From positions 62,001 to 126,000 of the forward strand of contig NZ_PGCK01000010.1 in NCBI RefSeq assembly GCF_021023085.1: DNA of 64,000 nt, written 5' to 3'. The DNA is from Methanooceanicella nereidis. GTDB lineage: Archaea > Halobacteriota > Methanocellia > Methanocellales > Methanocellaceae. A program made the position numbers and the translations under genes. The notes under the pieces are model-generated. The model was not told the DNA's origin. It did not search any database and saw nothing but the letters and a program-made list of their open reading frames with translations. Below, piece by piece: positions 42,040 to 59,667 of this stretch; within the stretch, counting starts at the first letter, position 1, and every line of letters begins with the position of its first letter.

Positions 42040-42987
42040 ATGATCTCCATAAACGATAACGTGACAAGGTATATTGATGAGATACTTGACAGGGAAGAAG
42101 AGCTGAACGTAAAGTCATATTATCTTGAGAACCAGGCCACGGTCATCGATTGTGGAGTCAATGCGGTCGGCAGCATAGGCGCCGGCATACTATATGCAAT
42201 GGTAAGCCTGGGCGGCTTCGGCAAAATATCAATGGTCCCGGGCATCATCGATGACTATTACCTGCATTTCTCGCAAGTCTACATAGACAGCCCATACCTT
42301 GCGTGCCTGGGGTCCCAGAAGCCTGCGTGGAAATTAAAGATAGAAGGCTACACCGGCACGGCTTTTGGTCCGGCAAGAGCGATATCCCAAAAGCCTAAGG
42401 CGTTATATTCGGCGATAGATTATACTGATGATTCCGAGACGGCCATCATAAACATCGAATCACAGGCTTTGCCGGGAGAGAAAGAGATAGATTTCATAGC
42501 AAAGCAATGCTCGACAGACCCGGAATGTGTAGTGGCGCTGGTTGCTAAGCCCAACTCAATAGCAGGCTCGATCGTTAACAGCACGCGCACCGTGGAATGG
42601 GTATTGAACAGGCTGTACCAGCTGGGATATGATACGAGAAATATCACGTCAGCTTCAAGCGCCACGCCTATCGCCCCGGTAATGAGCGGCGAGCAGGAAT
42701 CAATGGGCGTATCCTTCGACAGCATTGCATATTACGGTATGGCATTTTTATATGCAAAATGCCAGGATGAACGTTTCAAAGACGCGGTCTCAGCGTCATC
42801 AAAGAACTACGGTAAGGGCTTTTTATCGATAATGAAAGAATCGCAGGGAGATTACTCGAAGGTCGATCCGGCGATGTTCACAACGGCCAGGCTCACGGTC
42901 AACGGCCTTGAGGACGGTATCACGAAAGGATATGGTAAACTGAACCCGTCAATGCTGATGACCTCATATGGCTTGAAGAATATTTAA
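42040..42987 (+). CDS. Divergent methenyl-H4MPT cyclohydrolase paralogue
   Basis: 315 residues, aligned along its whole length with the canonical Mch at 58711. It starts MISIND like Mch and keeps FGPARAI, VALVAKPNS and the Arg-x-x-Glu pair (RTVE) that corresponds to the catalytic Arg183/Glu186 of the Archaeoglobus enzyme. Other parts differ, for example VNAVGSIGAGILYAMVSLG and SATPIAP in place of SVPVPPV. Mch interconverts methenyl- and formyl-tetrahydromethanopterin. The paralogue may act on another pterin or under other conditions. It has its own leader with a hairpin and an AGGCAGGAAG binding site. Confidence 0.82.
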   Translation: MISINDNVTRYIDEILDREEELNVKSYYLENQATVIDCGVNAVGSIGAGILYAMVSLGGFGKISMVPGIIDDYYLHFSQVYIDSPYLACLGSQKPAWKLKIEGYTGTAFGPARAISQKPKALYSAIDYTDDSETAIINIESQALPGEKEIDFIAKQCSTDPECVVALVAKPNSIAGSIVNSTRTVEWVLNRLYQLGYDTRNITSASSATPIAPVMSGEQESMGVSFDSIAYYGMAFLYAKCQDERFKDAVSASSKNYGKGFLSIMKESQGDYSKVDPAMFTTARLTVNGLEDGITKGYGKLNPSMLMTSYGLKNI

Positions 42988-43594: not shown

Positions 43595-45268
43595 TTAATG
43601 GTATTCTTCGTATTTTAGCGGATTCCAGATAATCTTCTTAGAGTCCAGGCGTGAGTTCGGCAGGTTCTCATAGACATGCTTTGCAGATTCGAGTTCCTTT
43701 TCTGCCTCCTCTTTGCTCTGGAACATTCTGTTATCAGCGCTCGGGTCAGCTGTCTTCACTTTTTCCTCGAGGGCTTTAATAAGGCTGAGCTGCCTCTCGC
43801 GGGCATACTCGTCCCCGTCCAGGATCCATTGTGGCGCCAGGTCTCTCCTGACGTCGCCGAAGTATTCGACCTCGCGGGCTATGTCACGAAGTATCCTTTC
43901 GGAGTTCTCCCTGACATCCATAAGGGCCTTCTCAACGTCCTCTATGGTGAGGTCTTCCCAGCTCAGGGGCTTATCCCTTAGCTGTCCTCCCAGCCTCTTG
44001 GCGACCAGATAGAACGGGAACATCTTCTTTATGATAGAGCCTACTGGATAAATGGACCCTCCGTTCTCGTCAAGACCCTTAGGCTGAACGCCCTGCATCG
44101 CTATTCTGGCGACCTCGGGCCTGACGACCTCCTTCGGAGGCATATAGCCATATCTCATAAGTTCCCTGATCGATGTGCCGCTTATGTTTATCCTGTACTG
44201 TTTCCCGTGCGGGCAGGTATTCTCCGTCGCCGTTGTGCCGCAGCGTGTGCAGTAGAACACTTCGCTGAAGAACAGAAGATCGATGCCAAGCTCCTTTGTT
44301 CCTCCTTCGTACAGGCGGTCGAATATCGTCTGGCATTCATAGTCGCCGTAATAGCTGCCTACGCCTGCATGGTCCCTTCCTATGGCGAAGCTCGTCGCTC
44401 CGAAGTTCTTTGACACAAGCGCGTGCAGTATAGCCTCTCTCGGGCCTGCGAATATGTATGTCACACGAAGCGGGCTGATCAATGCCCTTTCTTTCGGGTA
44501 ATATTTGTTGATAAGAGTCTCGTAAGCCTGAAGCCGGTACTCGGACCGTACATACTCAGGCTTCGCCAGCTGCACCAGGGGCTGGATGAGCAGCATGTCA
44601 TTGTTCTCAAGCGCCGTGCGGTGAATGTATTCGTGGCCGCGGTGGACAGGATTGGCGCCGGTAATGAAGCCGACAACGCTCTTTGCGCCCTTTTTCTTGT
44701 AGAAGTAATCCCTGCATTCTGCCGGTGTAAGCCTGCATTTCTCAAATGCTCCCCAGTTGGCCCGGGTCATGAGCTCGACCTTTCCGGCAAGCGACCTGTC
44801 ACCCATCCTCTCATAGATGCTGCGCACTCCTGGGTGGCGCTTATCTGTCGTGCCGAAAACACACTGCGCGCGTTCCTCGCGGTCATACTCGAAGACTTCC
44901 TCGGTGATGATGCGCGCTATCGGCTCTTTATTCTTGTTGATAAGAGTAACGATGTCCCCTTTGCTGAGACCTTTCAGAACATCCTGGTTGCGTTCACCTG
45001 CGACCGCGAAAGACAGCGGTGTCGGCCATGGCGTACCGTCGGCAAGCCTGCCCGTATGTAACACAGACCTGTAGTCCTCCTGTGTGTGGAAACCATCACA
45101 TGGACTCAGGGCGCCTGTAGCTATCATCTCGATGGTGATCCATGCTTCCTCGTCTACCATGATGGTATCCTGGTTCTTAGAAAGGCTTTCCAATGCTTCT
45201 TCAAGGGCCACTTCCCTTGCCGGACCCTCCAGTATCGTATTGACAAGCTTCAGTTCTGTTCGGCTCAT
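43595..45268 (-). CDS. ATP-sulfurylase-like protein with altered sulfate site and long C-terminus
   Basis: 557 residues. PUA-like N-terminal domain, then a nucleotidyltransferase core with HRGHEY (the HxxH of the family), IGRDHAGVG, a CxxC...CxxH zinc site (CTRCGTTATENTCPHG) and ISGTSIRELM. ATP sulfurylase makes APS from ATP and sulfate. Its sulfate-binding QTRNP motif is here ITGANP: Gln and Arg are missing. A C-terminal extension of about 150 residues follows, Lys/Glu-rich and helical. No APS reductase or kinase is near. It may adenylylate another anion or act in another process; assimilatory sulfate use is less likely. Confidence 0.78.
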   Translation of the reverse strand: MSRTELKLVNTILEGPAREVALEEALESLSKNQDTIMVDEEAWITIEMIATGALSPCDGFHTQEDYRSVLHTGRLADGTPWPTPLSFAVAGERNQDVLKGLSKGDIVTLINKNKEPIARIITEEVFEYDREERAQCVFGTTDKRHPGVRSIYERMGDRSLAGKVELMTRANWGAFEKCRLTPAECRDYFYKKKGAKSVVGFITGANPVHRGHEYIHRTALENNDMLLIQPLVQLAKPEYVRSEYRLQAYETLINKYYPKERALISPLRVTYIFAGPREAILHALVSKNFGATSFAIGRDHAGVGSYYGDYECQTIFDRLYEGGTKELGIDLLFFSEVFYCTRCGTTATENTCPHGKQYRINISGTSIRELMRYGYMPPKEVVRPEVARIAMQGVQPKGLDENGGSIYPVGSIIKKMFPFYLVAKRLGGQLRDKPLSWEDLTIEDVEKALMDVRENSERILRDIAREVEYFGDVRRDLAPQWILDGDEYARERQLSLIKALEEKVKTADPSADNRMFQSKEEAEKELESAKHVYENLPNSRLDSKKIIWNPLKYEEYH

Positions 45269-45517: not shown

Positions 45518-45784
45518 TCAGTCCATTTTAACCATACCATTCCCTATGTGAAACTCGTATTTTTTATCGCCGAATGATAAGACGATCCTGTAGCCCTCGA
45601 CCAGCATCTGCGCATAAGACTTGCCGGGTTCGGGCATGCCAAGGCTGGTGTCGGGCCAGGTGATCTCTTCGCTTGATATGACCGCCAGGGTATTTTGAGG
45701 CGCGCCGAGCATTTTAGATAATTTATTTTTCGCCATCTCGATAGCTTCCTGTAGACTCTCCGGGTATTCGTCAGACATATTCAT
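45518..45784 (-). CDS. Small conserved-type protein with WPDTSLG motif
   Basis: 88 residues. The central EEITWPDTSLGMPEPGKSYAQ and the following GYRIVLSFGDKKYEFHIG match a small family seen in many bacteria and archaea, usually as part of secreted or lipoprotein contexts, function unknown. Here no signal peptide is present, so it would be cytoplasmic. Start could be Met 1 or Met 3 (45778). It stands alone between two AT-rich gaps. Confidence 0.65.
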   Translation of the reverse strand: MNMSDEYPESLQEAIEMAKNKLSKMLGAPQNTLAVISSEEITWPDTSLGMPEPGKSYAQMLVEGYRIVLSFGDKKYEFHIGNGMVKMD

Positions 45785-58588: not shown

Positions 58589-58710
58589 TATGATCATCCG
58601 CTTGTTTGAATATCTAGTTATCATGGCTTTAACAGTTTAATAGTTTTTGGGTACATGTGCGGGGGGAAAAATTAAAAACTAATGCTTGCTATTAAATCTT
58701 GGTGAAATTT

Positions 58711-59667
58711 TTGATCAGTGTCAACGAATTAGGTTATTCCATAGTTGAGGAGATGCTGGACTTCGCAGAGGATTATAAGGTCGAGCCCCAGACGCTTGCA
58801 AACGATTCAGTGGTCATCGACTGCGGTGTGAAGGCAGAGGGAGGCTACGAAGCCGGTCTGCTGTACACGCAGGTCTGCATGGGAGGACTCGCCACCCCGA
58901 CCATAACACACAAGAAGCTGGGACACGAATTCTTCTTGCCTTTCATGGAAGTATCCACCGATTACCCGAGCATAGCCTGCCTTGCGGCACAGAAGGCCGG
59001 ATGGCAGATAAAGGTAGAAGACTATTTCGCAATGGGTTCCGGACCCGCAAGGGCGCTGGCCCTTAAGCCGAAACACACCTTTGAGGTCATCGAGTACGAA
59101 GACGATTACGATTTCGCCGTGATCGCACTTGAAGCTGATAAGCTTCCGAACGAGAAGGTCATGGACTACATCGCTACCGAATGTGGCGTGGACTCCTCGA
59201 GCGTCGTCGCATTAGTGGCACCGACAAACAGCCTTGTCGGCTCCTTACAGATCGCGGGCCGTGTCGTCGAGATGGCCATCTATAAGCTCAACGAGATGGG
59301 CTTCGACACCCGCAAGATAATCAGCGCATTCGGCAGCGTGCCCGTACCTCCGGTCAAGAAGAACGGGGCGGTCGCCATGGGTACAACGAACGATGCGTCC
59401 ATATACCACGGCAGCGTCACGCTCACGGTGAACGGCGGAGGCATTAAGGACTTCGTCAACAAGATCCCGTCCTCGACGTCGAAGGATTACGGAAGGCCGT
59501 TCTTCACGATATTCAAGGAAGCGGGCTTCGACTTCTACAAGATCGACAAGTCCATCTTCGCACCGGCAGAAGTTATCGTCAACGATATTTCTGCAGGCGA
59601 GACCTACCGCGCAGGAAAGGTCAACCCCGAAGTCATAATGGAATCTTTCGGCATAAAGAACATATAA
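58711..59667 (+). CDS. mch: Methenyltetrahydromethanopterin cyclohydrolase
   Basis: 318 residues from TTG 58711, giving MISVNELGYSIVEEML, the usual Mch start; a GGTGA site is five bases upstream. An earlier TTG at 58699 precedes that site and is less likely. Motifs: VVIDCGVKAEGGYEAGLLY, GSGPARALA, VALVAPTNSLVGS and GRVVEMA with catalytic Arg and Glu. It interconverts methenyl- and N5-formyl-H4MPT in the main C1 pathway. Divergent from mptA; a strong terminator follows. This is the canonical copy; a paralogue is at 42040. Confidence 0.92.
   Translation: MISVNELGYSIVEEMLDFAEDYKVEPQTLANDSVVIDCGVKAEGGYEAGLLYTQVCMGGLATPTITHKKLGHEFFLPFMEVSTDYPSIACLAAQKAGWQIKVEDYFAMGSGPARALALKPKHTFEVIEYEDDYDFAVIALEADKLPNEKVMDYIATECGVDSSSVVALVAPTNSLVGSLQIAGRVVEMAIYKLNEMGFDTRKIISAFGSVPVPPVKKNGAVAMGTTNDASIYHGSVTLTVNGGGIKDFVNKIPSSTSKDYGRPFFTIFKEAGFDFYKIDKSIFAPAEVIVNDISAGETYRAGKVNPEVIMESFGIKNI

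Follow-up and report, generated by a model that had tools for sequence, protein, structure and literature searches.

The window, by which we mean the whole 64,000-nucleotide stretch of DNA analysed here, comes from a methane-producing archaeon of the Methanocellaceae and carries a gene for a homologue of ATP sulfurylase (Sat, EC 2.7.7.4) whose acceptor pocket, judging from sequence alignment, has been rebuilt. The core fold, the motifs for AMP and pyrophosphate (PPi) and the zinc site were retained, a C-terminal tail was added, and the Gln and Arg that hold sulfate were lost together with their partner Asp. Because of this joint loss, the full retention of the nucleotide side and the weak matches of the altered motif to generic HxGH nucleotidyltransferase models, which six canonical Sats lack, we favoured the reading that the enzyme would still transfer AMP, but to an acceptor other than sulfate, a proposition that we regard as evenly balanced. 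In such a reaction AMP would be moved from ATP with release of PPi, and the acceptor would be held unlike sulfate in the canonical enzymes and would most likely not be free sulfate. The conserved first 50 residues of the tail probably serve to complete the new acceptor pocket or to cover it, and the helical part that follows would mediate assembly.

The gene runs on the minus strand from an ATG at 45268 to a stop at 43595 (557 codons and the stop, 557 amino acids), and the coordinates given in the initial annotation were right. Both the PUA_2 and the ATP-sulfurylase domains were found by Pfam (Table 1), and the core of an AF2 model, mostly at pLDDT >85, showed the Sat fold. Compared with T. 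thermophilus ATP sulfurylase (ATPS) with bound APS (1v47) and with M. thermolithotrophicus ATPS (8a8d), the core gave TM scores of 0.94 and 0.92, normalised to the 1v47 and 8a8d chains, respectively. The Methanothermococcus thermolithotrophicus enzyme was the best solved relative, with the match limited to residues 7-388, and the next folds after Sat in the structure comparison of the model were NMNAT and PPAT. The protein shares with Sat (8A8D, 1V47) the PUA domain, the catalytic domain and a zinc-bearing domain III, but its N-terminus is without the HGG motif, which the census of homologues located near the N-terminus of nearly all archaeal canonical proteins. Across the whole gene, dN/dS was about 0.03-0.05 where computable, the synonymous sites being saturated.

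Table 1. Coordinates of the Sat-like gene and its parts in the window, and of the APS-kinase-like gene elsewhere in the genome.
Feature	Position	Strand	Evidence
ANP-type ATP-sulfurylase homologue, whole gene	43595..45268	minus	ORF; PF14306 and PF01747; orthologues
N-terminal PUA-like domain, residues 1-168	44765..45268	minus	PF14306 (PUA_2), residues 7-168
Catalytic ATP-sulfurylase domain, residues 177-391	44096..44740	minus	PF01747, 255.8 bits
Altered anion loop ITGANP, residues 202-207 (QTRNP in canonical Sat)	44648..44665	minus	alignment of 46 homologues
Retained HxxH (H209, H212)	44633..44644	minus	alignment
Altered mobile loop QLAKPEY, residues 233-239 (GxxKxxD in canonical Sat)	44552..44572	minus	alignment
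Retained GRDHA, residues 297-301	44366..44380	minus	alignment
Retained zinc site C340-x2-C343-x8-C352-x-H354	44207..44251	minus	sequence, alignment
Retained SGTxxR, residues 363-368	44165..44182	minus	alignment
Tail part A, residues 391-442, MQG[VI]QPKGL...RLGG..R..PL	43943..44098	minus	at least as conserved as the catalytic domain
Tail part B, residues 443-557, helical and coiled-coil-like, with lower conservation	43598..43942	minus	identities; AF2
APS-kinase-like gene	L043 9197-9754 (G000:C7)		orthologues L077, L078, L079

The nucleotide motifs and the zinc site proved to be intact, as had been claimed (H209xxH212, G297-RDHA and S363-GTxxR368, together with C340, C343, C352 and H354), so that the protein carries the HxxH, GRDHA and SGTxxR of Sat, and the remaining active-site positions examined were canonical. 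The claimed loss of the sulfate motif was likewise seen in a 46-row alignment. All 40 canonical homologues, which were archaeal, Bacillota, Deinococcota, cyanobacterial and proteobacterial (Sulfurovum was left out of the 40), read Q-T-R-N, and in place of this QxRN(P) sulfate-binding loop the window protein has ITGANP, with a one-residue insertion and with the Thr, Asn and Pro kept. ITGANP occurred in 0 of the 40 canonical rows and was present in four Methanocellaceae and one bacterial record, which we call ANP-type. The GxxKxxD loop with its Arg-pairing Asp was also lost, the G being replaced by Q or E and the D by Y (Gln233 and Tyr239 here) to give QLAKPEY or EMAKREY in the ANP-type proteins. 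The MR of MRYAGP was YI (YIFAGP), and VRK was VSK, VSR or IMK, with Ser for the R of VRKNFG in the window protein.

In Allochromatium ATPS, the sulfate oxygens are bonded by Gln199 and Arg201 of the QxRN loop, Arg201 is itself bonded by Asp237 of the mobile GxxKxxD loop, and the active site of ATPS has been called virtually identical whatever the metabolic role (PMC3779200). Here the replacements (Q to I, R to GA, D to Y, G to Q/E, MR to YI and VRK to VSK) co-vary and strip the acceptor side of several charged or polar groups. Set against the motifs that were kept, the altered residues therefore place the changes on the acceptor side, with the AMP/PPi side retained. Since several charged or polar contacts were lost, a larger or less charged acceptor would be as likely as another oxyanion, and the earlier suggestion of another oxyanion or a cofactor acid was a fair guess.

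Profile scores set the protein outside the curated Sat families of NCBIfam (PRK04149, 378.6 against a cut-off of 387; sopT, 289.4 against 322.95), and neither it nor its M. paludicola orthologue reached the cut-off of any NCBIfam Sat model. Of six canonical homologues, all passed PRK04149 and five passed sopT as well. Weak generic HxGH matches (cyt_tran_rel, E 0.07; nicotinate-nucleotide adenylyltransferase, E 0.04; citrate-lyase ligase, E 6e-4) were obtained as well; matches to such models lay near the altered motif in the ANP-type proteins, were absent from the six canonical ones and were mostly not significant. The HxGH nucleotidyltransferases (NMNAT/NadD, PPAT and citrate lyase ligase) share a generic GxxNPxHxGH-like signature with the protein but have another domain architecture.

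The tail, which the initial annotation had put at 150 residues, was real but comprised about 167 (391-557), with no recognisable domain past residue ~398. It was found in 0 of the 40 canonical homologues aligned, in line with the claim that normal enzymes lack it; it was not gained by one protein, however, being normal for the tailed members of the subfamily. Among Methanocellaceae, identity was 88-94% in part A and 85-87% in the catalytic part. Part A was 57% identical to the bacterial copy (L040), to which the core was about 52-74% identical by region. Its invariant basic residues, including K397, R425 and R431, were conserved across the archaeal and bacterial copies. With conservation no lower than that of the catalytic domain, part A would behave as though it belonged to the active or assembly surface. 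Part B was 65-70% identical within Methanocellaceae and 31-36% identical to the bacterial copy, and appeared in the AF2 model as long helices, with confidence varying between blocks from about 30 to 84; these may act as a helical spacer or oligomerisation arm. Confidence for the tail as a whole was low to medium, with a mean pLDDT of 53 when it was modelled alone from four sequences. Pfam, NCBIfam and PDB profile searches gave no convincing domain match for the tail. PDB-profile matches to coiled-coil ATP synthase b chains (E 0.0075 or worse) were taken as composition, and a C-terminal APS kinase, as in the bifunctional Sat/APS kinases, was rejected, there being no APS_kinase domain match in the tail and a PRK05537 score of 242 against the 669 bits needed.

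A search for homologues with the same tail and motif, proposed at the outset, was successful in all three other Methanocellaceae genomes compared (4/4 in total), at 80-82% identity (82% in G001 and 80% in G002, M. paludicola), and in the bacterial record L040. We infer that the M. paludicola gene is MCP_1659, in part because it is the sole Sat homologue of that genome; MCP_1659 and the RC-I orthologue have the same motif and tail and, at that level of identity, no distinguishing sequence feature. To most archaeal Sats the window protein was roughly 35-45% identical. Sats were found in 72 of 394 genomes of the phylum, its own genome included, and in 11 of 394 genomes of one class, and in neither scan did a match outside Methanocellaceae reach the tail. 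One scan of genome contigs gave matches in Methanocella only and no further bacterial members, and none were added by the viral contig scans, the phage scans or a motif-pattern search. Searches of plasmid records, including tblastn, returned L040 and L070 only.

L040 is an unannotated record of 16.7 kb (NZ_CP081281.1), labelled as a Phaeobacter inhibens plasmid, with frameshifts inside the Sat-like gene. Its pieces include GFITGANPLHR, are 56% identical over the aligned parts of the core and extend through the tail to the last residues. It is probably a low-quality or misassigned contig of uncertain true source. One block of it is ~75% identical to Azospirillum plasmids, and the surroundings are bacterial. 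L070, Sulfurovum mangrovi WP_318532963, shares the one-residue insertion, as AANP, and TYIFAG, but is without the tail and reads GSNHG for GRDHA and NxxH for HxxH, the first His being lost. Among the proteins compared, it matched the Methanocella family best, at 200 bits, the top canonical protein reaching 135. A tree set six rows (the four Methanocellaceae, L040 and L070) apart from the 40 canonical ones, the separating branch having a length of 0.96 and 100/100 support; the branch of L070 itself was very long (6.1), so its place is unsure. The ANP-type loop and the co-lost Asp and Arg positions were seen in the four Methanocellaceae and L040. The tree and alignment indicate that the ANP-type proteins are a distinct subfamily spanning archaea and bacteria, in a clade separate from the canonical Sats. 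More tentatively, and with slightly less than even confidence, we propose that they are cross-domain adenylyltransferases with a non-sulfate acceptor and with the tail in the active site, mislabelled in databases as sulfate adenylyltransferase.

The observation that no sulfate-reduction genes adjoin held for the neighbourhood, none being present among the Pfam-matched neighbours (methenyl-H4MPT cyclohydrolase, a VTT-domain membrane protein, FtsJ, PhoU, an ABC permease, a MoCF_biosynth protein, peptidase M29, SAM hydroxide adenosyltransferase, RibD and an AIRS-like protein), but not for the genome, which has homologues of CysC, CysH and sulfite reductase elsewhere. The Sat-like gene stands alone, with downstream neighbours that differ between genera, and its solitary position gives no hint of the substrate. 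Contigs other than that of the Sat-like gene carry one clear APS-kinase-like gene and one marginal match, a pair of CysH-like proteins (about 640-650 aa) and a single small protein resembling sulfite reductase; no SulP family match was found in the genome. This set corresponds to the one from which, in the portion of the M. paludicola genome paper considered here, assimilatory sulfate reduction was proposed (Sat MCP_1659 with CysC, CysH and sulfite reductase homologues); that portion annotates MCP_1659 and its RC-I orthologue as sulfate adenylyltransferase and makes no mention of the lost motif (PMC3146512).

The APS-kinase-like protein tested scored 107 bits where 138.7 were needed and reached no curated APS-kinase cut-off, and the one CysH-like protein that was scored missed the CysH cut-offs (87.6 against 165.1 bits); the published pathway itself is therefore weakly supported, being drawn from homology with soft members. 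Where canonical APS kinases read DGDNVR, the protein of this genome reads LELDKVR and the Methanocellaceae set L-[EN]-[LI]-D-x-[IV]-R. Its gene is flanked by a member of the inositol-monophosphatase family and a kinase gene of the APH family, and the Methanocellaceae 'APS kinase' may not be an APS kinase.

The protein could alternatively be a true ATP sulfurylase that serves sulfate assimilation in Methanocellales, with the Gln and Arg contacts replaced, for example, by K397, R425 and R431 of tail part A or by main-chain amides of the lengthened G-A loop. The conservation of the fold, of all AMP/PPi motifs and, across domains, of the basic residues in part A is consistent with this, but QTRN was kept in every canonical homologue aligned. 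The gene is the sole Sat homologue in its genome, and the genome search found no CysD-like protein; thus, if Methanocella activates sulfate at all, this protein is the candidate. A pathway has been published for M. paludicola and RC-I, yet in this genome the gene lies apart from the other pathway genes, the scores of two putative partners fall short as described, and, among methanogens, M. thermolithotrophicus alone is reported to grow with sulfate as its sole sulfur source (PMC3146512, PMC10322725). We consider genuine sulfate use through a rebuilt pocket a serious rival, possible but on balance rather improbable.

A non-catalytic or regulatory role, for instance as a nucleotide-binding scaffold assembling through the helical tail, is unlikely. 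The losses of GRDHA and of the first His of HxxH in Sulfurovum L070, the most divergent protein of the group, mean that proteins near the ANP-type group can lose catalytic residues, but the tailed copies of Methanocella and of the bacterial record retain each AMP/PPi catalytic residue examined, and purifying selection on the gene is strong. That the gene is an artefact of sequencing or assembly, or a pseudogene in decay, is virtually ruled out by the four Methanocellaceae orthologues, which keep the 557-codon frame at 80-82% identity with low dN/dS, and by the bacterial copy with the same motif and tail. As for AMP transfer to another acceptor, the loss of the sulfate ligands is real, fixed in an archaeal-bacterial subfamily and coupled to the loss of the partner residue, and a changed acceptor is therefore plausible; the new substrate put forward in the initial annotation was to this extent supported, with sulfate use still competing.

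If this reading is true, the subfamily would offer a clear natural example of how the ATPS fold can switch its acceptor, with the sulfate ligands dropped and the chemistry kept, and the first step of the published sulfate-assimilation pathway in rice-field methanogens would be removed. The database label 'sulfate adenylyltransferase', and the published pathway resting on MCP_1659, may then be wrong. Caution would also be due in the automatic annotation of Sat, including in Campylobacterota, with Cj1609 as a possible case. Campylobacter jejuni Cj1609, labelled as sulfate adenyltransferase, has been reported to be essential (PMC10077673). The Sulfurovum locus (L070/L072, NZ_CP087125.1, 392214-393251) has the gene order ispDF - response regulator - sat-like - pgpA, and Cj1607-Cj1608-Cj1609 share this arrangement, if perhaps only partly (PMC4435418).

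Immediately upstream of the Sat-like gene and co-directional with it lies an ORF of 87-88 aa with no Pfam family (window 45518-45784, minus strand; L042 8808-9071). Its protein was 54% identical between this genome (G000) and M. paludicola (G002); none was listed in G001, where the gap is too short. The window also holds two paralogues of methenyl-H4MPT cyclohydrolase (Mch; 42040-42987 and 58699-59667), which are 39% identical and 16 kb apart, and the copy adjoining the Sat-like gene may be the divergent one.
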